From: Fibrobacter sp.
GTDB lineage: Bacteria > Fibrobacterota > Chitinivibrionia > Chitinivibrionales > Chitinispirillaceae
NCBI GenBank assembly: GCA_012523595.1
Contig: JAAYIG010000004.1
Location: 1-34,441 of the forward strand
Direction of reading: 5' to 3'
Length of the DNA: 34,441 nucleotides
Position 1 is the first letter of the stretch. The number at the start of each line of letters is the position of its first letter. Of the stretch, positions 11,054-34,441 are shown piece by piece. Below the pieces are notes generated by a model. It was not told where the DNA came from. It made no database searches and saw only the letters and a list, made by a program, of their open reading frames with translations. The translations under genes and the position numbers were made by a program.

Positions 11054-13369
11054 ATGTTAAAGGGTTCCAAAAAAACACGCAGGGACACACGATCTCTGAA
11101 AGTGATCCGTATTGGAAAGAAGTTCCGGGTTCGCCTGCCATTGTTTATTTCTCCGCCACTTTTTGTTCTTCTTGGAACAATCCTCGTTGTTGCTCTTCTT
11201 TTTCCCTATACCCAGACTGTTCAGTCCTTTGATCTTCCAAAGCTTGGTGAAGCCGCAAAAGAGACAATAATCGCCCCTTTCACATTTGATATTGTGAGGT
11301 CTCCGGAGGAGCTTGAGAAGGAGAGAAAGAAGGCGATGAGTCAGGTTCTGGCTGTGCTTGATTATGATACAGGTGTCAGGAAGACGGTAAATAACAGGTT
11401 TTTTGAACTTCGTAACGCCATAATCAAACATCTGGACAGGGAAGCAACGGATTCTGCAAAAAGCCTTATCCGGCAGACATTTTCGAAGGAGATATCTGAG
11501 AACACCTTCAACATTCTTCTGAGACGCCCGTATCTGCTCGATGATGCAATGCTGCTGGCAGACGAACTGCTTGAAAAGGGAATCTCTGCAGTGTTGCTTG
11601 TTCCCGACATGAAGAAGCTGACTCAGCTCAGGTCGACGTATAATACCTCTTTTGAGCAGCATCTTTTCTATGATCGTGAGTATGTTTCTCTCAGGCGTGA
11701 CTCAGAAGAAAAGACAGTCTCCACAGAGGAAATCCCGGTTAAGGAAATAGCTCTGGAGAGCTGCATAAAGCGTCTGCGGAATGTCAGGAAGCTTGATGAT
11801 GAGGCGCTCAACACAATCTACGAGCTGCTTTTTGCATACTGCCGCCCCAATGTAAGATTAAATGGGGCAGCTACGATGCAGCGTCGTCAGAAGGCAACTC
11901 AGGATATCCTGGAGATAAGCGGCAAGGTTATAAAAGACACCGAAATCGTAAGAAAACACCAGGAAGTCACAGCCGAGGTGATCCAGAAACTCAGTTCTCT
12001 GCAAAGAGCACTGGATGTACTGGGAAATGTCCAGGAGAAGCGCAAAGTGAAGGCCGGTAATGCAGGACGATTGTTATTGACGCTGCTGCCTCTTCTTTTT
12101 GTTGCCGTTTACATAAGAAGGTTCGATCAGAAGCTCATGAAAAACAGTAAACATCTTCTGGCCCTTGCTTTACTGCTCGTACTGCAGCTCCTTATAATCA
12201 GGGCGGGAATGATGCTTGCGCCGAAGCTGTTTGAGGGGATGATTGAGATGGGGTCTCTGGTGCCGGAATACCTGATCCCCCTTTCTACCGGTTCCCTTCT
12301 GGCATCGATTCTTTTCAGCCTGGAGATCAGCTTCATTTTCACTCTTTTTGTGAGCATCTTTTTCGGAATGATAATGGGCTTTAACCATTTCTTTTTTCTC
12401 TATGCTTTTCTGGGGGGGATCATCGCCTGTTTTATGGGATGTAATATCCGCTACAGATGGCATTTCTTCAAGGTGATTGCTCCTGTTGCAATTATCTATA
12501 TGATTGTGATTTCTATCTGGCATATTATTGGTTTTAAGATGTCTGTCATTGAATTGTTCCAGAATTACGGGTTATTGCTTATCAGTGTGATCGTGTCAAT
12601 TTTCCTGACGATGATGTTTACACCGATTTTCGAGAGGTTCTTTGATATCACTACTGATATGACTCTTGTGGAACTCTCGGATATGAATAATCCCATTTTA
12701 AAAAGGCTCTCTATCGAGGCTGCGGGAACTTACAATCACAGTGTGCTTGTGGGGAACCTGGCAGAATCCGCAGCCCAGAGGATAGGTGCCAATCCGCTTC
12801 TGGCCAGGGTGGCTTCTTACTACCATGACATAGGAAAAATAGAGAAGGCAGATTATTTTGTTGAGAACTGTTTGACAGTAGACAGAAGCAGGCATACCAA
12901 ACTGGCGCCTTCGATGAGTGCTCTTATAATATGCTCGCATGTAAAGGATGGCGTTGAACTGGCACGAAAGCACCGTATCCCCAAGGTGATTCAGGATATT
13001 ATCATGCAGCATCATGGGACTAGTACGGTTTCCTTTTTCTATGAAAAGGCACTTGAGCAGGATCAGCACAAGCAGGTTCAACCCGAGGACTTTGCATACA
13101 GCGGGCCGATTCCGCAGACCAGGGAGGCTGCGATTATCATGCTGGCTGATTCAGTCGAGGCTGCATCGAGGAGCCTGGGAACAAGCTCTCCCAAGCTACT
13201 GCGTGAGCTGGTGAAAAAGATTATCAGAGACAAGTTTATTTCATCACAACTGGATCAGAGCGATTTGACTTTACGGGACCTGGATGAGATTATAGAGGGA
13301 TTCATGCCGGTTCTGCAGGGAATTTTTCATTCCAGAGTTGAGTATCCTAACAGAGAAAAAGGAGTGTAA
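11054..13369 (+). CDS. pgpH: 7TM-HD family cyclic-di-AMP phosphodiesterase (PgpH/YqfF-like)
   Basis: At 771 residues this is the standard length for the family. A first membrane segment (about residues 28-50) is followed by a large extracytoplasmic 7TMR-HDED domain to roughly residue 335. Seven hydrophobic helices then run to about 530, and a cytoplasmic HD domain ends the protein. The HD site reads YYHDIGK (H591, D592), preceded by YNHSVLVGNLAESAA and followed by MQHHGTSTVSFFY, as in PgpH, which hydrolyses c-di-AMP. The substrate is assumed from the family. The ATG at 11054 lacks a Shine-Dalgarno sequence, and only an unlikely CTG (11039) lies in frame between it and the preceding stop. The following HAMP gene begins at the next base after the stop. 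Confidence 0.92.
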   Translation: MLKGSKKTRRDTRSLKVIRIGKKFRVRLPLFISPPLFVLLGTILVVALLFPYTQTVQSFDLPKLGEAAKETIIAPFTFDIVRSPEELEKERKKAMSQVLAVLDYDTGVRKTVNNRFFELRNAIIKHLDREATDSAKSLIRQTFSKEISENTFNILLRRPYLLDDAMLLADELLEKGISAVLLVPDMKKLTQLRSTYNTSFEQHLFYDREYVSLRRDSEEKTVSTEEIPVKEIALESCIKRLRNVRKLDDEALNTIYELLFAYCRPNVRLNGAATMQRRQKATQDILEISGKVIKDTEIVRKHQEVTAEVIQKLSSLQRALDVLGNVQEKRKVKAGNAGRLLLTLLPLLFVAVYIRRFDQKLMKNSKHLLALALLLVLQLLIIRAGMMLAPKLFEGMIEMGSLVPEYLIPLSTGSLLASILFSLEISFIFTLFVSIFFGMIMGFNHFFFLYAFLGGIIACFMGCNIRYRWHFFKVIAPVAIIYMIVISIWHIIGFKMSVIELFQNYGLLLISVIVSIFLTMMFTPIFERFFDITTDMTLVELSDMNNPILKRLSIEAAGTYNHSVLVGNLAESAAQRIGANPLLARVASYYHDIGKIEKADYFVENCLTVDRSRHTKLAPSMSALIICSHVKDGVELARKHRIPKVIQDIIMQHHGTSTVSFFYEKALEQDQHKQVQPEDFAYSGPIPQTREAAIIMLADSVEAASRSLGTSSPKLLRELVKKIIRDKFISSQLDQSDLTLRDLDEIIEGFMPVLQGIFHSRVEYPNREKGV

Positions 13370-14545: not shown

Positions 14546-16450
14546 ATGGGCTCACTGATCTGTATTTCCGGAGAGATTCAGCAAAGGGATCTCGATCTCC
14601 TCAGAGAGGTTGCCGGAATCCATGGCTTTACCGTGACTGTAATGAGCAGAGATGGCATTCAGGGAAAGAGATTCGAGGAAGATCTGCCAAGAGGATTTTT
14701 TTCCTTTCTGCCGCCTTCACCGGATCTGATCCTTGAGCTCTTCGCGAATCTTCTGCTTGGTTCCGGAGAATGCCTTCCTTTGTTTCAAAGGGTAGGAGAT
14801 GAGGTTCCCTCTTTTATAAATAAGATGCCTATTCTGGGTGTATTTGAGACTCCACTTACAAAAGCGGCAGTCTGCAGCATGCTTCTGGCTATTGTCAGAA
14901 GCGATGCTGTAAATGAGCGGAACAAAGCGATGGTTTCCGCAATTGTCAAATACCGTAATGAGAAACTGGATCTGGTGCGTATCGGGACAGCACTGTCAAG
15001 TGAAAATGATCTTCAGAAACTTCTGGAACTCATCCTTTCCACATGCAGAGAGATTCTATGTGCTGATGCCGGAAGTATTTACATAAGGGAGAGGAAGGAG
15101 CACGGTGGAGCCTTCAGCGACACTCTTTCCTTCAAAGTCGCTCAGAACGATTCTGCGGATCTTGGCAGGATGCCTGAGTATTCGGTTCCGATCAACTGTA
15201 ACTATATCGCCGGTTATGTGGCGCTTACCGCAAGATCACTTAATATCGATGATGTAGAAAGGCTTGATGAATCGGTTCCTTACCGGGCCGGCAGGGCATT
15301 GATGGAAAAGACCGGCTACCGTATCAAATCGATGCTTACTATCCCTCTTAAGAATCACGATGGTGAAGTGGTCGGAGTGCTCCAATTGATAAACCGGAAA
15401 AATGCCCCCTCAGTAAGACTCGATAAAGCAAATACGGATCAGATGGTGAGGTCGTTTTCTCTTTCTGATGAGGAGTTTGTGCAATCTGTTGCATCACAGG
15501 CCGCTGTATCGATTGAGCGGGCACAGCTATATGAAAACATCAAAGCCCTCTTTGAGGGATTCCTGGGTTCATCGATAGCTGCCATTGATGAAAGGGACAG
15601 GGTAACATCGGGACATTCAAAGCGTGTGATGGGCTTTGTAAATGCTTTTCTTGATGCCGCGGAAAAGGATCCCTTATGTCCCTATTATGAACTGGCCAGT
15701 TCACCTGACAGGAGAAAGCAGTTTCAGTTTGCTGCATTGCTCCATGACATCGGAAAAATCGGAGTTCCTGAGTATTTATTAACAAAAGAGAACAAGCTCG
15801 GCCAGGGCGAATTTGAAAGCATTATGTCAAGAATGGATTATGTTGAACTTCTGCTTGCTCTCAAACCGTCGAATGCTCCGGGATGGAGTTCGATAGAGGA
15901 GGTGGAGAGGGACAGGGAGCTTCTCAAACAGGTTAACGAATGCGGGAGGCTAAGTGATGAGCTTTACAGGCGTCTTGATGAACTGAAGCAGAAAATTTAT
16001 ATCACAATTCAGGGGCAGAAAAAGGAGTTTCTCAGTCAAGATGAGTGGAATAAGCTCTCAGTCCGCTCCGGAAATCTGACTCCTGAGGAGCGTGAGCTGA
16101 TCAATTCTCATGCTGTCTCTACGTTCCGTATTCTTTCAAAGATTCCCTGGACCGGTAATCTTGCGAGGATACCTGAGATAGCCGCACAGCACCATGAGCG
16201 TACTGACGGGTCCGGGTACCCGGGGAAACTGACAGGTGATAAGATACTTGTTGAAAGCAGGATTCTTGCCGTGATTGATATTTATGAGGCGCTTGTAGCT
16301 CAGGATCGTCCATACAAACCCCGGACCAGTCTGAAAAAGGCACTGCAGATACTCAGAGAGGAGGCCGATAGAAATCATCTGGACAAAAATGTGGTCTCAT
16401 TCTTTATCGAAAAAGAGATCTACCGTTCACCTGAAAAACAGAGCAGTTGA
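14546..16450 (+). CDS. GAF plus HD-GYP signalling phosphodiesterase
   Basis: The 634-residue protein has three parts. Residues 1-150 form an unassigned domain, perhaps a decayed receiver. A GAF domain spans about 150-335. An HD-GYP domain follows, with HD at 400-401 (LLHDIGKIGVPEYLL), H522 (INSHAV), H549-H550 and DGSGYP from D554. HD-GYP enzymes hydrolyse cyclic dinucleotides, usually c-di-GMP, using an iron centre. The HD pair and H522 are 122 residues apart instead of roughly 29, so about 90 mainly helical residues are inserted inside the catalytic domain. The ATG at 14546 is the first in frame. The stop overlaps the murB start (TGATG). Confidence 0.9.
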   Translation: MGSLICISGEIQQRDLDLLREVAGIHGFTVTVMSRDGIQGKRFEEDLPRGFFSFLPPSPDLILELFANLLLGSGECLPLFQRVGDEVPSFINKMPILGVFETPLTKAAVCSMLLAIVRSDAVNERNKAMVSAIVKYRNEKLDLVRIGTALSSENDLQKLLELILSTCREILCADAGSIYIRERKEHGGAFSDTLSFKVAQNDSADLGRMPEYSVPINCNYIAGYVALTARSLNIDDVERLDESVPYRAGRALMEKTGYRIKSMLTIPLKNHDGEVVGVLQLINRKNAPSVRLDKANTDQMVRSFSLSDEEFVQSVASQAAVSIERAQLYENIKALFEGFLGSSIAAIDERDRVTSGHSKRVMGFVNAFLDAAEKDPLCPYYELASSPDRRKQFQFAALLHDIGKIGVPEYLLTKENKLGQGEFESIMSRMDYVELLLALKPSNAPGWSSIEEVERDRELLKQVNECGRLSDELYRRLDELKQKIYITIQGQKKEFLSQDEWNKLSVRSGNLTPEERELINSHAVSTFRILSKIPWTGNLARIPEIAAQHHERTDGSGYPGKLTGDKILVESRILAVIDIYEALVAQDRPYKPRTSLKKALQILREEADRNHLDKNVVSFFIEKEIYRSPEKQSS

Positions 16451-22592: not shown

Positions 22593-25500
22593 ATGGGACT
22601 GTTCAGGAGAATTGGATTTATCGCGGTTATTGCGGCCGTGTATGCATTTGCACAGCAGGCAAACGATTATTTGACAGTTCAGATTCCGGTCGGGGCTCAA
22701 CCTGCAAACAAAGTGTTATGGGTAAGGTGGTCAGGTGTCTCCCGCGGTCCGGGTTACCTTCCTCCCGATTCCGGTTTCATTTACTATGACAGAACTCCCG
22801 GAGGAGCAGACCTGGCTAATTACAGGTATAAGGTAACAGTTCCTTATGTAGATACCATTCGTGATATCGCAACTGGCGAGATTCTCGCGCTGGACACAAT
22901 AAGTAACAAGTATTATCCTGAAAATCCACCCAAACGTGCATGGGCTTTTCGCCCCTCAGACCAGCCGGGAATGGGGTTTGGGGTGTTTTATTGCATTGTA
23001 GCTTTTCCTGTTCCGGGAAAAGATACCCTGTATTCAAATGTGTTTCAGATTTTTGTTGAGAGTCCCAAATCGGTCACTACACTGAATCCGCATGACACAA
23101 TAAGCAATCTGACACCTGTTTTCAGTTGGGAATCAAATCCTGGGGTCCCGTACTATCATGTGGTCCTTTCTGATCAGCTTGTGAAAGTTGATACTGTATC
23201 CGACAGCGGAACAATAAGCCTTGGTGGTTTGAGTATTGTCTGGCAAGCCATAACCCCCAATACTCAGATAACCTACGGGGTACCGGATCCTTCCAGGACA
23301 ATCACTGCTGATCCTCCGCCCTTGTCTCCGGGCCAGGTTTACACATGGATAGCGCTGAACAACTACGGAAACAACGCAATGTTTTCCACGATGAGAATCG
23401 GGAGCGGCTCTTTAAAGACCTTTACAATTAAAGGAACCCCGCTTCATAAGCCAAAAAGCGTTTACCCTGTAAATAAAACCCTCAATTTGCGGGACAATCC
23501 CCAGATACGGTTTTCCTGGACTGACCTGGATCAGAGGGCTAACACTTATAAGGTCTATCTCTATGTCGGATCACCGATAAATGGAATTGAGGGACAGGTT
23601 GTGCTCTGGCAGAAAGAGGTCATGGGTACTGATTATGAGGACACCATGAGTGTGGAGATAGATGCAGCATCTGTAATGACTTCCAATAAATACACCTGGC
23701 GTGTGATCGCCATTGATGACAGGGGAGCGGGAACAGCGGGTGATATTGTTGAATTCAATTACAATGTGCCTTCCGGCGTATTCCGTATTAAAACTATGGA
23801 ACAGGTTTTTATCAATGATACTGTTTCAAGCAGTCCTGTAGGATTGGTAGAGTTAAAGGCAGAGGTGCTGGATGGTTCAATGGAAACGGGGATGCTTTAC
23901 ACCGATTTCAATGGGAACCTGGTAAGAGAAAGGCCGGCAGGTACATACAGATTAACAGCGATAAAGAGTGAGTTTATGCCTCAGACCCAGACAGTTGTTC
24001 TCAGCGAGAATGATACAACTGAAGTCACTTTTTATCTGGAGAGGCCGCAGTCGACAATTTACGGGGGAGTATATGATGTTGCCGGAAACAGGGTTAATCT
24101 GGCCAGGGTTTATGCTGTTTCCGATCTTGGTGATACATCTTCGGCTCTTACCGATGCATCCGGGAATTTTGTTCTGAGAGCTTATGGGGCAGACTGGAAT
24201 ATCGGAGCGGAAAAGGCCGGTTACAAACCATCATTTTCCAGTAAAATCACTGTTGCCCATGGTGAAAGCTATAATTTCGGTTCTATTGTTCTGGAACGAA
24301 ATCCATTTACAATATCGGGTATAGTGGAGAATGGTTCCGGAGTTCCATTACTGGGTGCAAAGGTTACCATTTCCCGGTATGGAGAGAAGGTAGATGAGGT
24401 TCTTTCGACTCCGCAATCAGGTTTCTTCTCCTTTTCTGTTCCTGCCGGGGAATACACCATCTCAGCAGAGAAGACAGGCTTTACATCGTACAAGAATGTA
24501 ATAGAAGTTCTGGGGCCAAAAAACGACCTGAAAATCACAATGAAAGCCGGTGCGACACTTGTAAATGGTTTTATCTATGGAAAGACATGGGTAGGGGAGA
24601 GAGAGGTCATAGCTCCTGTAACCGGTGCTGCAATCAGGTTTATCGAGACCGGTTCATCTGATACATTTTCCGTAATTTCCGATGCCACCTACGGTGACTT
24701 CAAGATAAGCCTCCCTGGTGACAAAGAGTATCAGGTTATCAGCTCCGCTGCAGGCTTTGCATCCAGTAAGCCCCGTAAGATCAAGACAGTGGTCAAAGCC
24801 ACACAGACATTCAAAGATACTCTGCGCAGCCTGGGAATGCTTTCCGGAACAGTTGTATCCGATGGTTCAGTAATATCGGGTGCTAACATAAGTCTTGTCA
24901 GTGCTGCAAGCGATGAAGTTATAGCCACAGGAAAATCATCGTTACAGGGTTATTTCGAAATCAGAAGGATACCTGACGGTGACTATTTAATCAGGGCTGG
25001 TAAAGAGGGGTTTGTGCTTGACAGCATCGAGGGACCGGACAGCCTGAAGGTATCAGATGGTAAGTCAACTCCTGTGTCGACTGTAATACACCTCAAGCCT
25101 GGTACAAAGACAATCAAATGGTTTGTGGCGGGCGAGGGTGCATTTTCTGGATCTGTAAAGATTCAATCCCCGATTCAAAAAACTCTCTCCCATTCTGATT
25201 CTTTGACCAAGAGCGGGGCCGGTGCTTATGTGGTAACTGCAGACGCAAAGGATAATTCCATAATAGACCTGGCAATGCATCGTTTCTTTGTTGCCGATTC
25301 GGAAACTGTACACATTGATACGTTACAAATGGATGTTAAACATAACGCTCCCGATACTCTGACTCCTGTTAAGGGAACAGTGCGGCTTGAACTGAGTTCA
25401 GGAGAAGATCTCGATTCCGTCATTTTGTATTACAGAGATTTCAACTCTTCTGCATACATAAGCCGGAAAGATAACTCCCGCTCAGATTCCTATTCCTTCA

Positions 25501-27047
25501 ATATTGCGCCACCCAGGGATGGAAGTGATATGGTGTATTATTTCAGAGCATTCAGAGGCTCTGATATTTACGGGTACGACAAAGAGTCTTTCAGGACATT
25601 TGTAAAACCTGACACCAGCAGATTGAGCCGTTTTGAGATCTCCCCGTCTTCACAGGATACAATGACTTTTCCGCCGGGCTATTCTGCGCGGTTCTCATTC
25701 AAAGGATATTACAGTTCTGTGTTTCTTCCAGACTCAAGTATCGTTCCAAAGAGTATACGCTGGACTTTGAATAATGCGCAGGGGTGCGTACTTGAAAGCA
25801 AGGAGGGGCTGGAAGCAATAGTCCGTACCGGAAAAAACGCTTCTTCATCAGCTATTGTTTTGACTGCAACAATCGACACCAGTATAACAAAGGTTAAAGG
25901 AACCACAGTTTCGGTTTCGGTTCCTTTCCGCGTTTCAGGATCACCGCTAAAGACTATAGATGTAAAGCGAATTGATGCAGGACACATGAATGCCCTTACC
26001 ACATCTTCTGCTGATCAGGCGGAGTTTACAGTAGAAGCTTTTGATGAGAAAGGAAAGGCACTGAGAATCTCCCCCACATGGTCAATTACTCCATCGATTG
26101 CGGGTAAAATCTCCACTGATGGTGTTTTCCGCCCGGACAGGCATTTCTCCGGTCATGTCAGAATATTTGCGGAAGCGGCAGGAAAACGCGGTGAATACGT
26201 ACAAGAGGGGCAAAAGGAAGGAGGTCTCAATGTTCTGTTTTTGATCTCCCGCAAGAGTTCACCGGATACGGCTCTTAACGGGCAGGGGTGCATGGTGGTA
26301 TTTCCTCCGAATGTGGTGGGAAGCAGGGAAAGCGGGAAACTCAGTATAGCGATGAAACCGCTTAAAAACCAGGTCACCCGTTCATATGGCAATTTCAGAA
26401 CTGTTGACTCACTTGCTTATGAAATTACCGAGATGGAGGATGTATCATTCGACCTTACAAAGGATAGCATTGAACTTGTGATGGATCTTCCTGAATCTCT
26501 GCATAAGATGTCTGCCGGACGGCAGTTGACGATTGCGAGGTGGGATGATGACAGCCTGAAATGGAATATTGTTCAAGGTTCATCAGTTTCCTCTGATGGA
26601 AAGAGAATAAGCGCAAAGGTAACTCATTTTTCCAGATATGCGGTACTGGTGGAGATGAAAATGTCGGGATACCTCAAGGTTTCTCCAAATCCCTTCTCTC
26701 CCTATGTGTGGCCCAGGAATATTTCAGTCGATAAGCATCTTGGAACATGCTTTGAATTTCAGGTTGAAACCGCCTTCCTTCCTGTAGATGCAAGGCTTCG
26801 TATATACAATGTGGTAGGAGATCTTGTATGGTCATTACATGTTCAGGATGCCGATCGTCTGCCTTACAGAGTATGGTGGGACGGACGGACGACTGACAAG
26901 GACATAATCTGGTCAAAACCGGGATACACAATTGCTGAGCCAGGAAAGAAGATGTGCAGAAACGGCAGATATCTGGTGGTACTTACAGCCAGAGATGCAA
27001 ATAATTCTGAATGGAAATTCATGAAACAGATAGTCCTGATCAAGTAG
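22593..27047 (+). CDS. Large secreted multidomain protein with PNPF/FlgD-Ig-like C-terminal tail
   Basis: The 1484-residue product opens with a signal peptide (to about residue 20, AYAFAQQ). Two Fn3-like segments (about 165-270 and 285-390) each carry a PVFSW/QIRFSW strand. About five carboxypeptidase-regulatory-like domains follow (about 395-830), recognisable by repeated G-x-V...G-x-F-x-I...G-x-Y-x-I patterns. Ig-like regions span about 990-1200. At the end (from about 1364) are SPNPFSPY and a FlgD-Ig-like domain with LRIYNVVGDLVW and GRYLVVLTARD. That tail resembles type IX-type sorting domains of Fibrobacterota and Bacteroidota. It has no enzymatic domain; a cell-surface structural or adhesive role is likely. 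The next gene encodes a PorV-like barrel. Confidence 0.8.
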   Translation: MGLFRRIGFIAVIAAVYAFAQQANDYLTVQIPVGAQPANKVLWVRWSGVSRGPGYLPPDSGFIYYDRTPGGADLANYRYKVTVPYVDTIRDIATGEILALDTISNKYYPENPPKRAWAFRPSDQPGMGFGVFYCIVAFPVPGKDTLYSNVFQIFVESPKSVTTLNPHDTISNLTPVFSWESNPGVPYYHVVLSDQLVKVDTVSDSGTISLGGLSIVWQAITPNTQITYGVPDPSRTITADPPPLSPGQVYTWIALNNYGNNAMFSTMRIGSGSLKTFTIKGTPLHKPKSVYPVNKTLNLRDNPQIRFSWTDLDQRANTYKVYLYVGSPINGIEGQVVLWQKEVMGTDYEDTMSVEIDAASVMTSNKYTWRVIAIDDRGAGTAGDIVEFNYNVPSGVFRIKTMEQVFINDTVSSSPVGLVELKAEVLDGSMETGMLYTDFNGNLVRERPAGTYRLTAIKSEFMPQTQTVVLSENDTTEVTFYLERPQSTIYGGVYDVAGNRVNLARVYAVSDLGDTSSALTDASGNFVLRAYGADWNIGAEKAGYKPSFSSKITVAHGESYNFGSIVLERNPFTISGIVENGSGVPLLGAKVTISRYGEKVDEVLSTPQSGFFSFSVPAGEYTISAEKTGFTSYKNVIEVLGPKNDLKITMKAGATLVNGFIYGKTWVGEREVIAPVTGAAIRFIETGSSDTFSVISDATYGDFKISLPGDKEYQVISSAAGFASSKPRKIKTVVKATQTFKDTLRSLGMLSGTVVSDGSVISGANISLVSAASDEVIATGKSSLQGYFEIRRIPDGDYLIRAGKEGFVLDSIEGPDSLKVSDGKSTPVSTVIHLKPGTKTIKWFVAGEGAFSGSVKIQSPIQKTLSHSDSLTKSGAGAYVVTADAKDNSIIDLAMHRFFVADSETVHIDTLQMDVKHNAPDTLTPVKGTVRLELSSGEDLDSVILYYRDFNSSAYISRKDNSRSDSYSFNIAPPRDGSDMVYYFRAFRGSDIYGYDKESFRTFVKPDTSRLSRFEISPSSQDTMTFPPGYSARFSFKGYYSSVFLPDSSIVPKSIRWTLNNAQGCVLESKEGLEAIVRTGKNASSSAIVLTATIDTSITKVKGTTVSVSVPFRVSGSPLKTIDVKRIDAGHMNALTTSSADQAEFTVEAFDEKGKALRISPTWSITPSIAGKISTDGVFRPDRHFSGHVRIFAEAAGKRGEYVQEGQKEGGLNVLFLISRKSSPDTALNGQGCMVVFPPNVVGSRESGKLSIAMKPLKNQVTRSYGNFRTVDSLAYEITEMEDVSFDLTKDSIELVMDLPESLHKMSAGRQLTIARWDDDSLKWNIVQGSSVSSDGKRISAKVTHFSRYAVLVEMKMSGYLKVSPNPFSPYVWPRNISVDKHLGTCFEFQVETAFLPVDARLRIYNVVGDLVWSLHVQDADRLPYRVWWDGRTTDKDIIWSKPGYTIAEPGKKMCRNGRYLVVLTARDANNSEWKFMKQIVLIK

Positions 27048-27058
27048 GGCGGAGAACC

Positions 27059-28606
27059 ATGAGAAAAATTTGTAAAGCGGAGGAAACCGTGAGAGTTTGT
27101 TTAATTTCAGCAGCAATTCTGGCTTTTTTTGCATTGCAGGTATCTGCAGAGCCAAATGCGACTGAGAGCAGGATAAAGGTTGGTGTTCTGAGTCTCGAGC
27201 CTTATGGAGAGGCAGGTGGAGTAGCCGGGAAGGTGACGGAGGAATTGATCGCCAGTCTCAAGGAGATCGGGTTTTATGATGTTTACAATCAAAACATGAT
27301 AGAGGAGGCTTTGAAGCTGGTCAAGAAGAGGATGCCTTCTCATTGCCGTGATCCCCGATGTGTGCTAGATATCGGAAAGAATACCGGTATGGACAGGATG
27401 ATCTACGGATCGATCGATCTGGATGGCAACAGGAATGGAATAAAACTGTCTCTGATCGATATACTGATGAAGAGAACAGTTGAATCTGTGAGTATACAGG
27501 GTGCACCCGGTGTTTCTGTTTCAGAAGTGCTCAAGACTGCTGTAGCCCGTCTGCATGGTAACCCTGTTGATGAAACGAAATCAGAAGTTTATTACGGACC
27601 CAAAGTACATAATGAAAAGCAGCTCTTTTTCAGTGCTGCAGGTGTTATAGGGGCAGGGCTTATATACGGATTGGTCAATTATGCATCCGGAGGAGATGGG
27701 GCGGGCAGGATAAGTGGAGAGTATCCTTCATCCGGAGAAGACAGATCCGGAATAGCATCGAGTGCGGATCAGATAGCCTTTTTTGGCCGTCCGGCTGCCA
27801 TGGCTAACGCATACGTTGCTGAATCTGATGATGCTTACGGGGTGCTTTACAATCCTGCGGGGATGGCCTGGGTTGCGGGAGCAGAGATGGCGCTTGCGTA
27901 CCAGTACAGATTCGGGTTTATCGATAACCTGGCTGCCACCTATGTCAATAAAGCCACTCGGGAAATCGGCTTCGGCCATGCATTCCTTTACAGCTCAGAC
28001 AGGGGTGAGAACCTTTTTACAGAGATATACTTTGTTTCTGCTTTTGCCTATAAATTTCTGAATTTACCATCTTTTATCCGTCCATTTTCTCTCGGTGTGA
28101 ATCTCAAGCTGGTGAGTAACAGAGCCAGGGGTAATGATGAATATTCAATAAGCGGCAGTTCTTTCGGAGCCGGAATAGATCTGGGATTTATGTGGGAACT
28201 GGCGGATAACATCAGATACGGACTGCTGCTCAGGGATGTTCCTGTTGTTAACAGATGGAAAAATATCTCTACTGGAAAGAGATATTTCGAACCTCATGCA
28301 GCCACTATGCACATGGGTGGAATCTTTGAGGTGGGGTATTCGACATTTCTGATTGCGGAAGGACAGATTCCTCTTTACAGGGATCAGGCCTGGAAAATGT
28401 CGGGAGGAATAGAGCAGGAGATGTTTAAATTTATGGTTTTGCGGGCCGGTGTGCAAAAAGAGATTCAGTCTACACGTGAGACGCCATGGAAATTGACTGG
28501 TGGGTTTGGTATAAAGGTAAACTCAGTTGAGCTTGATGGCTCCTATGAATACAACACACTCCGGCTCTTTGATGTGATAGACGTATCTGTGAAGGTGGTT
28601 TTTTAA
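27059..28606 (+). CDS. CsgG-like periplasmic domain fused to PorV/UPF0164-like outer-membrane barrel
   Basis: The start is uncertain. ATG 27059 has GGAGA upstream (515 residues); GTG 27089 has a stronger GGAGG and gives a cleaner signal peptide (MRVCLISAAILAFFALQVSA). After the signal comes a CsgG-like alpha/beta domain (about 38-150): VGVLSLEPYGEAGGVAGKV, then SHCRDPRCVLDIGKNTGMDR with the paired Cys common in this group. A hydrophobic stretch (about 185-210) follows. From about 235 the protein has the PorV/PorQ signature, with GRPAAMANAYVAESDDAYG and LYNPAGMAW, then barrel strands ending in KVVF. PorV-type barrels in type IX secretion bind cargo tails. It follows a cargo-like gene by 11 bp, so they are likely co-expressed. 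Confidence 0.72.
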   Translation: MRKICKAEETVRVCLISAAILAFFALQVSAEPNATESRIKVGVLSLEPYGEAGGVAGKVTEELIASLKEIGFYDVYNQNMIEEALKLVKKRMPSHCRDPRCVLDIGKNTGMDRMIYGSIDLDGNRNGIKLSLIDILMKRTVESVSIQGAPGVSVSEVLKTAVARLHGNPVDETKSEVYYGPKVHNEKQLFFSAAGVIGAGLIYGLVNYASGGDGAGRISGEYPSSGEDRSGIASSADQIAFFGRPAAMANAYVAESDDAYGVLYNPAGMAWVAGAEMALAYQYRFGFIDNLAATYVNKATREIGFGHAFLYSSDRGENLFTEIYFVSAFAYKFLNLPSFIRPFSLGVNLKLVSNRARGNDEYSISGSSFGAGIDLGFMWELADNIRYGLLLRDVPVVNRWKNISTGKRYFEPHAATMHMGGIFEVGYSTFLIAEGQIPLYRDQAWKMSGGIEQEMFKFMVLRAGVQKEIQSTRETPWKLTGGFGIKVNSVELDGSYEYNTLRLFDVIDVSVKVVF

Positions 28607-30347: not shown

Positions 30348-31016
30348 TTGAATCTCAAATACAACAAATCTAAACAGGAAATGAGAGAAGATCCTTTAAT
30401 TGAATTACTTCTCAAGACCAAGAGCTTTTTTGTCAAGAACAGTAACCAGATTGTCGGGGGATTGATTGTTATTGCAGTCCTTATCGGCGGTTTTATGATT
30501 TTCAGCAACATCAGAAAATCAGGCGAATTGAAGGCAAGAGAAGCTTTCGGTAAAGCTATGATTTACTATACTGAGAACAATCTGGAAAAAGCAGTTGAAG
30601 AGTTTAAGATCACAGCAGAGAATCACGGTTCAAGTCCGCATGCCTCTATGAGTGCTTTTATACTGGCAAGAATCCTCTATGACCAGAAAAAATATGATGA
30701 TGCGCTGGTTTGGTATGAGAATTCAATAAAAGGATCAAAATCAGTGGAGTTTGTAGGGGGACAGGCTCTTGAGGGGATGGCTGCCTGTTATGAGGCGAAA
30801 GGTGATGTTTCATCAGCTATTCAGGCTCTGGAGAAAGCCCTGAAGGATGAACGGGTAAAATTCCGGCACAATGCTATTAAATGGAAAATCGCACTTCTGG
30901 ACCGAAATTCCCAAAAGTCGCATACCTATTTAAAGGAAATAATCTCGGATACAACTGCAACAGATCTTCATCAGCGTGCTGAGAACCTGCTTGCGACTCT
31001 AAATGCCGGTTCCTGA
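30348..31016 (+). CDS. Inner-membrane TPR protein (YfgM-like layout)
   Basis: The start is a TTG at 30348 behind a strong AAAGGAGGAAC. The 222-residue protein has a basic cytoplasmic N-terminus, one membrane helix (about 35-53, QIVGGLIVIAVLIGGFMIF) and a periplasmic part with three or four TPR-like helix pairs (AREAFGKAMIYYTENNLEKA, ASMSAFILARILYDQKKYDDA, ALEGMAACYEAKGDVSSAIQA). This is the layout of YfgM and related periplasmic chaperone partners, but identity is not certain. It is the first gene of a probable three-gene set with the pseudo-receiver and ParA-M23 genes, 50 and 18 bp apart. Confidence 0.75.
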   Translation: MNLKYNKSKQEMREDPLIELLLKTKSFFVKNSNQIVGGLIVIAVLIGGFMIFSNIRKSGELKAREAFGKAMIYYTENNLEKAVEEFKITAENHGSSPHASMSAFILARILYDQKKYDDALVWYENSIKGSKSVEFVGGQALEGMAACYEAKGDVSSAIQALEKALKDERVKFRHNAIKWKIALLDRNSQKSHTYLKEIISDTTATDLHQRAENLLATLNAGS

Positions 31017-31066: not shown

Positions 31067-31420
31067 ATGAAGCTGATCCTTGTTGATGACAATAGAAAAA
31101 GGCGTGAACAGATCAAAACCGCTGCCTCAAAACGCCAGTTTCGTGTCATTGATTGTCCTACGACAAACGATTTTTTAACATCTATTGAAAATGAAAAAGT
31201 TGATTTACTGGTGATAGAGACCGGGGCCTGGAAGAAGAATAAGTCAATTTTCAACTACTTTAAAATCGGCAAAGAGCTTGAAAACCTGCCTGTAATTTTA
31301 TATAATGCAGAAGAAGACTCTTATATAATACAGGACAGGAACAGAAGCGACAGAGACAGAATATTACCTAAACCTACCGATGTAGAAACTTTGATCGAAG
31401 CGATAGGGCAAAACGTCTGA
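31067..31420 (+). CDS. Stand-alone pseudo-receiver protein (Asp to Glu at the phosphorylation site)
   Basis: The 117 residues fit a single CheY-like receiver fold: KLILVDDNRKRREQI at the start with D7 and D8, a second strand-helix pair, VDLLVIETGAW where the phosphorylated Asp should be, and RILPKPTD with the conserved Lys (K102). The phospho-site is Glu (E51) and the usual Thr/Ser is Asn (N80). Glu at this site often mimics the phosphorylated state, so the protein may be locked in one form or regulated by binding. No DNA-binding or enzyme domain is attached. It sits 18 bp before the ParA-M23 gene and is a good candidate regulator or partner of it. Confidence 0.8.
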   Translation: MKLILVDDNRKRREQIKTAASKRQFRVIDCPTTNDFLTSIENEKVDLLVIETGAWKKNKSIFNYFKIGKELENLPVILYNAEEDSYIIQDRNRSDRDRILPKPTDVETLIEAIGQNV

Positions 31421-31438: not shown

Positions 31439-33268
31439 ATGGCTGATTTTAAAAAAAAGTCTTTGATATTTGCGGACTCTGATAACGGCGGAATAATTCA
31501 TATCGCAAATATCAAAGGCGGTGTTGGAAAGTCTACAGTTGCCACAAATCTGGCTGCTGCCTTATCCCGGCAGGGCCCCACACTGATAATAGATCTTGAT
31601 GTACAGGGAAGCGCAACTGTAGCTCTGGGCCAGGAGATAGATCCGGCAGGAGGAAATTCCTGGGATCTTTTTCGAAACAGGTTCAGCCTGCCAAATGAAA
31701 GTAATTCACTGCTGAAAAACATCAGTTCCAGGATTCAGAAGATCGCACCCGGAATCCCTGCTCTGAAATCACCTGGAAAGACTCTCAGTTCCTTCATTGC
31801 CAAAGTACATCCAGGACTTGACCTGATAGCCGCCGGACCTGATCTTTTCAAATCTCCTTCACACTTTCAATTAGAGAATCTCACTTATAATCTCAAAGTA
31901 CTGCGTGATAGTTATAAGTACATAGTACTCGATACTCCATCGGTCTGGAATCCCCTTACAAAACATCTTTATCTTCACAGTGACCTGAACCTGATTCCAG
32001 TAACTCTCAATGCGCTTTCAACCAGAAGTCTCAGGGATTATCTCTCCAGTGTTATGGCTTTGGCAAGACATAATCCTGCCCTTCGGGTGAGAATAATTAA
32101 AAACGAGGTGTTCGGGAGACAGAGTTTAAAAATAAAAGGCAAGACACGCACTATCAGTGAAAATCGTAAATTTCTGGATTATCTCTGTGAACAGGTTTCT
32201 TTTCAGAGCAGTGCCGGAGTTTCACTGCTGCCCCAGAATCTGATTTTCGATCTTGAGATACCGGAATCGGCAATAGTCAGGGATGCCCAGGATGAGGGAG
32301 TCCCACTTAACCAGTTTCATCAGTATAGCACCATCACAAAGTCTTTTGAAGAACTGGTGAAGAGGGTACAATATGTGTTAAACACTCCTCTTAGCAGGAA
32401 AAACCGTTTTGAATCCGGTAAATCAGCACTGATTCCCGGAGCACTTGCAGCGGCTGTACTTATAGCAATTTTCAGCCTTAATCAGCCAATCTCTGAATTG
32501 AATGCTCCACGTCCTCTTGCGCCTCAGCAATTTGCAGCTCCTGAAGGCGGAGTTTTCAACCATTCATTCAAGGATGGGGAATCGATTTACAAGCTTGCAA
32601 AGTACGCAATCTGTCGTTTCAGGGCCATGGTACCAAGTTTTGCTGATGTGAATCAGTACATAATGGAGACTGTTGCAATTCACAATCTCACACGCCAGGA
32701 AAATGAACCAAGGATTGACAATATCCACGCCATTGACAGAGATGTCACAATTACTTTCTATCCTCCTGAAAAGATAAAGAACCCACAGGAAAAGCAGCTT
32801 GTTCCGGTTTACAAGTATTTCATGGATCTGATCGAAGACAAATACGTGTATGTAACCGGAGACTGGTGTGAAAGGGGAACCGGCGGGGGACAACCCCATT
32901 ACGGAATGGACATTGCAGGAAAGAGCGGATCTGTGGTCTACAGTCCCATTGACGGGGAAGCGGTGGTCAAAACCAATGCTACTGCGGGAAGAACCATCGG
33001 TGTGGTTGCTGACGGAACAGTGATATTTTTCTCACATCTCGATAAGAGGTTCCTCAAGACGGGCGATAAAGTCAGAAAAGGACAGGCACTGGGTACTATC
33101 GGTATGACAGGAAGGACAAGTGGTCCCCATGTGCATATCGGCTATGGAATCCGTTCACAGACAAACAACGATGTGTCTTTTGGGAAATACAACTACCGGC
33201 TTACCGACCCCAAACTGTTTTTTTATCGTCAGATGTACCTGAACCGGATGTCCGGCAGGGACAGTTAA
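31439..33268 (+). CDS. ParA/MinD-type ATPase fused through a TM helix to LysM-like and M23 peptidase domains
   Basis: Residues 15-315 form a ParA-type ATPase: deviant Walker A KGGVGKST (26-33, with signature K26 and K31), Walker A' IIDLDVQGSA (D52, D54) and Walker B VLDTPS (D165). A basic stretch (SRKNRFESGK, 319-328) precedes one membrane helix (about 329-350), giving N-in/C-out topology. A LysM-like region (about 377-441) follows. The M23/LytM peptidase (about 470-595) is intact: zinc ligands H487 and D491 (HYGMD) and H566, and catalytic H533 and H564 (HVH). M23 enzymes cut peptidoglycan cross-bridges; ParA proteins position cargo by ATP cycling. The ATG at 31439 has no evident Shine-Dalgarno sequence. 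The gene ends two bases before the opposing recN stop. Confidence 0.9.
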   Translation: MADFKKKSLIFADSDNGGIIHIANIKGGVGKSTVATNLAAALSRQGPTLIIDLDVQGSATVALGQEIDPAGGNSWDLFRNRFSLPNESNSLLKNISSRIQKIAPGIPALKSPGKTLSSFIAKVHPGLDLIAAGPDLFKSPSHFQLENLTYNLKVLRDSYKYIVLDTPSVWNPLTKHLYLHSDLNLIPVTLNALSTRSLRDYLSSVMALARHNPALRVRIIKNEVFGRQSLKIKGKTRTISENRKFLDYLCEQVSFQSSAGVSLLPQNLIFDLEIPESAIVRDAQDEGVPLNQFHQYSTITKSFEELVKRVQYVLNTPLSRKNRFESGKSALIPGALAAAVLIAIFSLNQPISELNAPRPLAPQQFAAPEGGVFNHSFKDGESIYKLAKYAICRFRAMVPSFADVNQYIMETVAIHNLTRQENEPRIDNIHAIDRDVTITFYPPEKIKNPQEKQLVPVYKYFMDLIEDKYVYVTGDWCERGTGGGQPHYGMDIAGKSGSVVYSPIDGEAVVKTNATAGRTIGVVADGTVIFFSHLDKRFLKTGDKVRKGQALGTIGMTGRTSGPHVHIGYGIRSQTNNDVSFGKYNYRLTDPKLFFYRQMYLNRMSGRDS

Positions 33269-33270
33269 TC

Positions 33271-34441
33271 TTACCCTTTTCTTTCCAGCAATTCACGGGC
33301 ATGGCGGAGAGAAATTTCTGTGCTGCCGCCCAGCATCCTGGCAACTTCTTCCACTTTTTCATTGCCGCTGAGCTTGACTACGCGGGTAACGGTCCTGTTG
33401 TCCACGGTTTCTTTGTGTACCCTGAAGTGATGATCTGCAAGGGATGCGATCTGATGAAGATGTGAGATGCAGAGTACCTGATGTGATTTGCTCAGGGAGT
33501 AAAGAGATTTACCTACTTCTCCTGCAAGAACACCGCCTATGCCGGTGTCAATTTCATCGAAGATAAGCACTGGAATATGATCATTTTCAGCAAGGACAGT
33601 TTTGATCGCAAGCATCAATCTGGATATTTCGCCGCCGGAGGCAGTCTGTGACAGAGGCAACATCGATTCTCCGGGATTTGTCCGAACCAGAAAACGCACG
33701 GATTCCAGACCCTGAGAAGAGGGAGATTCGAGTTCATTGAAAGATGTATTCCACTGCCCGCCCTTGAATCCGAGCTTTTCCATCAACGCAGTAATCTTTT
33801 TGTCAAATTCAACAGCAGCTTTCTTTCTCGCCTTCCGGAGTTTCTCTCCAGTACTTAGACATTTCTGCAGAGATGCCGAGACTTTTTTCTGGAGCTCGTT
33901 TCTGTCTGATTCCAGATTCTCCAGGGAGAGCAGGTCTTTCTCAATGGATTTCTGACGTTCGATGAGCTTATCAAGAGTGCAGGAATACTTTTTCTTCAGG
34001 CGCTGTATTTTTGCCAGACGGGAGTTTATAAAGTCGATTCGTGCCGGGTCTGCACCGTTTTCTGCTTCCTGAAGATAGGAACTGCAGAAGGTTTCCAGTT
34101 CTGTAAAGATCGTAAGTGTGTTAGCAGTATCATTGATCCATGGGTCAATCGAGGAATCGAACTTCGAGAGGGTCTCCAGCTTCTTCTTTACGGCTGATAT
34201 TTTTTTCTGAATTGATTCATCAGACTCTCCCAGAAGGGAAAGAATTTCGGAAACACAGGAGGTTCTCTGAGCAGAGGAACTTAAGAGAGAGAGTTCTGCT
34301 TCCAGTTTTTCCTCTTCTCCGCTTTGCAGGTTTAAACTTTTCAGTTCATTATTCTGAAATTCAAGCATCTCCTGTTTTTCCGCCAGTTCATCGGCTTTTT
34401 TCTCGAGTTCCTGAAAGGCAGAAACAGCTTCTGTGTAGATG
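33271..34441 (-). CDS. recN: DNA repair protein RecN, C-terminal part (runs off the right edge)
   Basis: The frame is open through the right edge, where KKADELAEKQEMLEFQNNELK continues, so the ATG at 34368 is internal and the N-terminal Walker A is outside the window. Visible are the coiled-coil arms and the C-terminal ATPase half: the ABC signature TASGGEISRLMLAIK, Walker B PVLIFDEIDTGIGG and the H-loop region CISHLHQIASLADHHFRVHK. RecN is an SMC-like protein that acts at double-strand breaks. About 390 of the usual 550-570 residues are present. It is convergent with the ParA-M23 gene with only two bases between stops, and no terminator is visible. Confidence 0.95.
   Translation of the reverse strand, partial: IYTEAVSAFQELEKKADELAEKQEMLEFQNNELKSLNLQSGEEEKLEAELSLLSSSAQRTSCVSEILSLLGESDESIQKKISAVKKKLETLSKFDSSIDPWINDTANTLTIFTELETFCSSYLQEAENGADPARIDFINSRLAKIQRLKKKYSCTLDKLIERQKSIEKDLLSLENLESDRNELQKKVSASLQKCLSTGEKLRKARKKAAVEFDKKITALMEKLGFKGGQWNTSFNELESPSSQGLESVRFLVRTNPGESMLPLSQTASGGEISRLMLAIKTVLAENDHIPVLIFDEIDTGIGGVLAGEVGKSLYSLSKSHQVLCISHLHQIASLADHHFRVHKETVDNRTVTRVVKLSGNEKVEEVARMLGGSTEISLRHARELLERKG

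Follow-up and report, generated by a model that had tools for sequence, protein, structure and literature searches.

A single open reading frame in a 34,441-nt stretch of Fibrobacter sp. DNA (the window) encodes a 609-aa protein in which a ParA-type ATPase, a transmembrane (TM) helix, a LysM-like segment, and an M23 peptidase follow one another in one chain (31439..33268, + strand; defined by translation, Pfam, and 27 colinear full-length homologues). Judged from its conservation across genomes, this ATPase-M23 chain is a functional unit under selection and not a recent accident. With moderate confidence, we propose that the protein is a peptidoglycan endopeptidase tethered to the membrane and equipped with its own ParA-type localizer, which would cluster or position wall cutting in an ATP-dependent manner. 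It is an open question how cells choose the sites at which the peptidoglycan sacculus is opened, and the known routes run through separate cytoskeletal or ABC-type intermediates. The parts of the fusion protein are known; the combination of the two known kinds is new, within the databases and open-access literature searched and one P-loop-based genome scan. In particular, no named family with a ParA-TM-M23 layout was found in Pfam, NCBIfam, or the open-access literature searched, in line with a first-pass annotation of the window, which had taken the architecture to be undescribed.

The fusion frame is uninterrupted from ATG to TAA and occupies exactly positions 31439-33268 (+), as the first-pass annotation had read it. 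Pfam finds both the ATPase (AAA_31/CbiA) and the peptidase (Peptidase_M23) above curated cut-offs, and the catalytic sets that had been assigned to the two ends are complete and conserved: K26, K31, D52, D165, H487, D491, H533, H564, and H566 are identical in all 27 full-length homologues, some of which are only ~40% identical to the window protein. The ATPase domain (residues 19-310; 31493..32368, +), predicted to be cytoplasmic, matches AAA_31 at residues 19-215 (E 7e-20) and also CbiA, ParA, and MipZ, with AAA_31 and CbiA together covering residues 19-255. It contains the motifs KGGVGKST, DLDVQGSAT, VLDTPS, and a C-terminal EIPES..R.AQD.G, and it has the features of the ParA/MinD (Soj) superfamily: a deviant Walker A motif with the signature lysine, a switch I motif DxDxxG, a Walker B aspartate, and a ParA fold. 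The AF2 model of the fusion protein has a low pTM of 0.47, and we predict neither domain arrangement nor dimerization from it; the top PDB matches of the ATPase model are Soj/ParA (Foldseek, E 1.7e-14). On the ATPase tree, the fusion domains group in a clade of their own (99/98), which lies on the Soj/ParA side and is not the sister group of the chromosomal ParA of the phylum. NCBIfam gives no equivalog-level match to a named partition ParA or MinD family: ParA_partition is the best match, at 62.5 bits against a cut-off of 180, and minD_bact scores 28 bits against 213.

These matches make it highly improbable that the protein is, instead of a ParA-type ATPase, a tyrosine autokinase signalling protein of the BY-kinase (Wzc/CapB) kind. 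A MinD-like fold and a membrane anchor are common to BY-kinases, and the fusion protein gives a weak eps_fam match (NCBIfam, 29.9 bits against a cut-off of 108); however, the best family, fold, and tree matches are all Soj/ParA, switch I reads DxDxQGS (DLDVQGSAT) and not the DxDxR of BY-kinases, the domain order is reversed relative to Wzc, and a reading of the sequence finds no tyrosine cluster after the ATPase domain.

The M23 domain (residues 486-569; 32894..33145, +; PF01551, E 6e-17) contains the complete HxxxD ... H ... HxH set of M23 (LytM) zinc and catalytic residues, H487, D491, H533, H564, and H566, and its predicted activity is peptidoglycan crosslink cleavage. MepM is the second-best NCBIfam match of the fusion protein, at 44.8 bits against a cut-off of 341. 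Between the two catalytic domains, a single TM helix (residues about 329-349; 32423..32485, +) is located by hydropathy across the family (Kyte-Doolittle value 2.26 for residues 329-347) and by the structure model, in which the helix spans residues 331-347. The first-pass annotation had proposed one such helix with positive charges on its N-side; the helix is present, but the charge bias is modest, with the N-side more positive in 15 of the 27 intact-ATPase members, compared with 18 of the 19 members with a decayed or missing ATPase domain. An N-in topology, with the ATPase in the cytoplasm and the M23 domain in the periplasm, appears probable mainly because the two catalytic domains need opposite compartments. 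The LysM domain named in the same annotation is borne out only in outline: residues about 371-443 (32549..32767, +) form a divergent beta-alpha-alpha-beta segment with an enlarged middle in the secondary structure of the model, but a search with the Pfam LysM profile finds nothing in the window protein, even with the threshold relaxed to E 10, and the corresponding segment of one homologue scores 17.7 bits, below the cut-off of 20.9. Because the profile match is sub-threshold and the middle is enlarged in the model, "LysM-like" is the fair term.

Homologue searches covered 61 genomes and then 168 Fibrobacterota genomes. The protein was found in 131 of the 168, with Chitinispirillaceae, Chitinispirillales, and Chitinivibrionales bacteria among the named carriers; 27 copies are full-length, 6 are partial matches (several at contig ends), 1 lacks the ATPase, and 97 match only from about residue 300 on. 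Mean pairwise identity is 0.59 in the M23 domain, 0.54 in the ATPase domain, 0.49 in the LysM-like part, and lowest, at 0.30, in the membrane linker. A frameshift, assembly, or chimera artefact is ruled out by 27 independent continuous ORFs with the same colinear architecture. The first-pass annotation had foreseen homologues split into two genes as a sign of such an origin; none was found in the Fibrobacterota genomes searched, and the ATPase-less copy has no separate neighbouring ATPase. The sole genome with the protein in two pieces (G005) is one in which at least the N-terminal piece runs to a contig end. Outside the Fibrobacterota, no fusion was found among the matches listed from a limited scan that used P-loop patterns only, so that a rare fusion elsewhere is possible; the only long match among them (L142, 4932-6896, on one contig of an uncultured bacterium) proved to be a ParA gene close to an M23 gene, in separate ORFs. 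Within the phylum, the whole fusion gene has been cleanly lost in several close relatives, and the protein is therefore not essential across the phylum.

The 97 copies that match only in their C-terminal part come from family f8 and its sister family f12 (labels f1-f14 are those of the genome search; f8, to judge by how large it is and where it falls in the phylum, presumably corresponds to Fibrobacteraceae) and are mostly about 400-510 aa. Their N-terminal domain is a ParA homologue that has decayed and has no P-loop, KGGVGKS being missing from it in those read. Specifically, a profile of 18 diverse decayed-domain sequences aligns with the ATPase profile at a probability of 95.9, an E of 6e-9, and a score of 65.8 (hhalign), against a maximum of 22.4 in 100 column shuffles and 13.8 for the reversed profile; an earlier profile comparison, with just 8 Fibrobacteraceae sequences, had given a probability of 2.5% and no homology. 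The best PDB matches of a modelled Fibrobacteraceae copy, in which the N-terminal part is confident and the M23 part is not, are ParA-family 3ea0 and FlhG (Foldseek); the matches are weak (E 8e-4), and their identity fits the profile result. We take 3ea0, the top match, a ParA-family ATPase from Chlorobium, to be a TadZ homologue. Aligned in register, the decayed domain still has strands 1 and 2, the NLxxxRxxYKxIV helix-strand, and the strand after it, and the nucleotide-binding residues are gone. We read it as a putative pseudo-ATPase.

In family f13 (one genome, G158), the ATPase domain is missing altogether, and a 331-aa TM-LysM-like-M23 protein starts 4 nt after the gene for the pseudo-receiver described below. 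Every one of the 19 decayed or ATPase-less copies examined retains all five M23 residues. On the LysM-M23 tree, f8 and f12 form one clade (100/100), beside f13 and the ATPase-bearing f9 and f10 copies; on this placement, loss of ATP binding is derived, through one decay and one absence, with the finer order made unsure by long branches. With the peptidase retained despite a decayed ATP site, and the ATPase domain missing from one family, ATP cycling would be a lineage-specific, dispensable layer. This pseudo-ATPase series is the part of the analysis that a specialist would least expect.

The same losses could suggest a weakly coupled fusion, in which the ParA domain is merely a membrane-proximal anchor or oligomerizer and ATP turnover is irrelevant to wall cutting: there was at least one loss of the ATP site, and one more family is without the entire domain. 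We consider this improbable, as a mere anchor would not need all ATPase residues to stay unchanged in each of the 27 intact members, distant ones included. Quite improbable, too, is a nucleoid sensor, in which the ATP-bound tethered ParA domain would bind DNA non-specifically and couple wall cutting to the presence or absence of the nucleoid under the membrane. Switch motif (DLDVQGSAT), fold, and tree position assign the domain to the Soj/ParA type, DNA binding is a property of Soj-type proteins (a Soj-DNA complex is seen in 8jmj), and three basic residues of the domain, R218, K221, and K235, are invariant; yet the decay of the domain in Fibrobacteraceae shows that any such link is not generally needed.

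A further alternative is ATP-driven transmembrane gating, in which ParA dimerization would alter the periplasmic part and switch the peptidase on, as a one-chain counterpart of FtsEX-EnvC. ATPase and M23 do share one chain, and in FtsEX-EnvC, the binding of ATP to FtsEX causes periplasmic changes in EnvC through which amidases are activated (PMC12505981). The two systems are alike in that cytoplasmic nucleotide binding is linked across the membrane to a LytM/M23-type domain, but FtsEX-EnvC is an ABC transporter complex of separate chains, in which EnvC is an activator of amidases and not an enzyme, whereas the fusion has a ParA fold. Moreover, the single helix and the least conserved segment between the domains (the linker, at 0.30) suit tethering better than a rigid transmission of force, the peptidase persists where the ATPase is not intact, and FtsX is already in the genome, encoded elsewhere. 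For these reasons we regard gating as unlikely, and one helix, a poorly conserved linker, and a peptidase that stays intact after ATPase loss lead us to hold, with moderate confidence, that positioning or clustering is the better account. FtsX is present in 19 of 21 genomes tested, and its presence in the window's genome led us to reject the idea that the fusion replaces FtsEX.

Members of the ParA family position cargo. In the clustering and positioning mechanism that we prefer, the cytoplasmic ParA domain would dimerize in an ATP-dependent manner, as in Soj, MinD, and TadZ; the domain would bind a cytoplasmic partner; dimerization and binding together would cluster the protein at a chosen inner-membrane site; and clustering would concentrate M23 crosslink cleavage locally. 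The core job would be local wall cutting, since the peptidase outlasts both the decay and the disappearance of the ATP site; ATP cycling would add timing or dynamics where it is kept, and the decayed domain in Fibrobacteraceae may serve as a static docking scaffold. More tentatively, the protein could be a phylum-specific machine in which the ATP cycle of the tethered ParA ATPase would itself pattern or gate peptidoglycan cutting, with no intermediates, and in which the Fibrobacteraceae ATPase is a static pseudo-ATPase scaffold. If the ATP cycle does pattern or gate cutting directly, Fibrobacteraceae would be a natural experiment on what that cycle adds. With a pattern-forming ATPase and a cutter in one chain, their coupling can be tested by point mutations (K31, D52, H566) in one gene, and in the Fibrobacterota series, where the ATPase is intact, decayed, or absent and the peptidase always intact, what ATP contributes can be told apart from what the scaffold contributes.

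The gene 18 nt upstream of the fusion encodes a 117-aa pseudo-receiver (31067..31420, +; Pfam Response_reg) with Glu at the usual phospho-acceptor position. The pseudo-receiver is directly upstream of the fusion in 44 of 46 loci, usually within 30 nt; across a diverse set (n=12), the phospho-Asp is not conserved, and W55, Y64-F65, and R91 are invariant. It has a wider spread than the fusion, being found in 154 of the 168 Fibrobacterota genomes, fusion-less ones included. Two intact-ATPase loci are without an adjoining receiver, and no receiver was found in the genomes of f9 and f10, two other ATPase-bearing lineages. In G020, where the fusion gene is gone, the receiver gene directly adjoins recN; in f11, the methyltransferase and BshC-type genes found after the fusion in f13 come after the receiver gene. 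Since the receiver is kept where the fusion is absent, the two are neighbours and not an obligate pair, and a dedicated partner is ruled out; for the dimerization mechanism proposed above, the pseudo-receiver is a candidate partner only, and it may be a more general player than the fusion.

Next upstream is a gene for an inner-membrane TPR_21 protein (30348..31016, +; Pfam), a conserved neighbour only in many Chitinispirillia-type loci. On the other side, a convergent recN (33271..34368, -; NCBIfam recN, E 4e-92), incomplete at the window end, adjoins the fusion gene in many relatives and is not part of the system. In G038, an SLT lytic transglycosylase gene comes next after the fusion with a 4-nt overlap, which fits a wall role of the fusion. 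Among the identified neighbours (TPR, recN, SpoIIE phosphatase), no Tad genes were seen. Pseudo-receiver homologues (L182-L209) occupy differing operons, with TPR, M23, or methyltransferase-BshC genes.

Three known systems invite comparison with the fusion besides FtsEX-EnvC. LmdC is a bactofilin-linked bitopic membrane M23 DD-endopeptidase of Hyphomonas and Rhodospirillum, whose cytoplasmic N-terminus is recruited by a cytoskeleton (PMC10945521); among experimentally tested systems it is the nearest analogue of the fusion. The fusion resembles it in a single TM helix, here with a predicted N-in topology, and a periplasmic M23 domain with a full active site, the N-terminus being the localization handle of LmdC. 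However, the cytoplasmic tail of LmdC is short and bound by bactofilin, and the LmdC stalk is a coiled coil, whereas the fusion has a ~310-aa ParA ATPase and a LysM-like segment, and the fusion gene is not beside a bactofilin gene, its nearest genes being those for TPR, receiver, and RecN. Of all copies, the ATPase-less one of f13 comes closest to LmdC. In TadZ/CpaE, an atypical receiver is combined with a ParA/MinD ATPase that dimerizes on ATP, and the protein localizes the secretin (PMC13170226). The window likewise pairs a pseudo-receiver with a ParA/MinD-fold ATPase, but here receiver and ATPase are separate genes, no Tad gene was seen among the identified neighbours, the receiver also occurs without the fusion, and the ATPase has a TM helix of its own as anchor and a covalent link to a wall peptidase. 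Soj/ParA partition ATPases have the closest fold and motif set, with ParA_partition as the best, sub-threshold family match; unlike them, the fusion is not beside parB, is membrane-anchored, and forms a clade apart from chromosomal ParA.

The window's genome also has a separate bitopic M23 gene adjoining bactofilin and parAB. Specifically, contig 32 (L212, 4504-7350) carries a tightly packed parA-parB-bitopic M23-bactofilin operon, located 3' of mnmE-mnmG-rsmG, with genes that overlap or nearly overlap (all gene names assigned by reading the sequence), and ParA and M23 are thus associated there at the operon level as well. A possible origin of the fusion from these neighbours is attractive, but the ATPase tree keeps the fusion clade apart from the phylum's chromosomal ParA. 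Bactofilin is found in 19 of the 21 genomes tested, and Amidase_3 is present. MinC_C is below its cut-off in 21 of 21 genomes tested, with or without the fusion; since this holds irrespective of the fusion, we find no link to the replacement of a Min system, and Fibrobacterota may lack a canonical one.

Elsewhere in the window, a 7TMR-HD (PgpH-like) protein (11054-13369) and a GAF-HD protein with two HD matches (14546-16450) flank tRNA-Val and tRNA-Asp. The region 22593-28606 encodes a protein of 1484 aa that looks secreted and may end in a C-terminal sorting tail, and another of 531 aa that has no Pfam match and resembles a PorV-type outer-membrane protein; both are neighbours in G009 too and are possibly a type IX secretion cargo and its partner.
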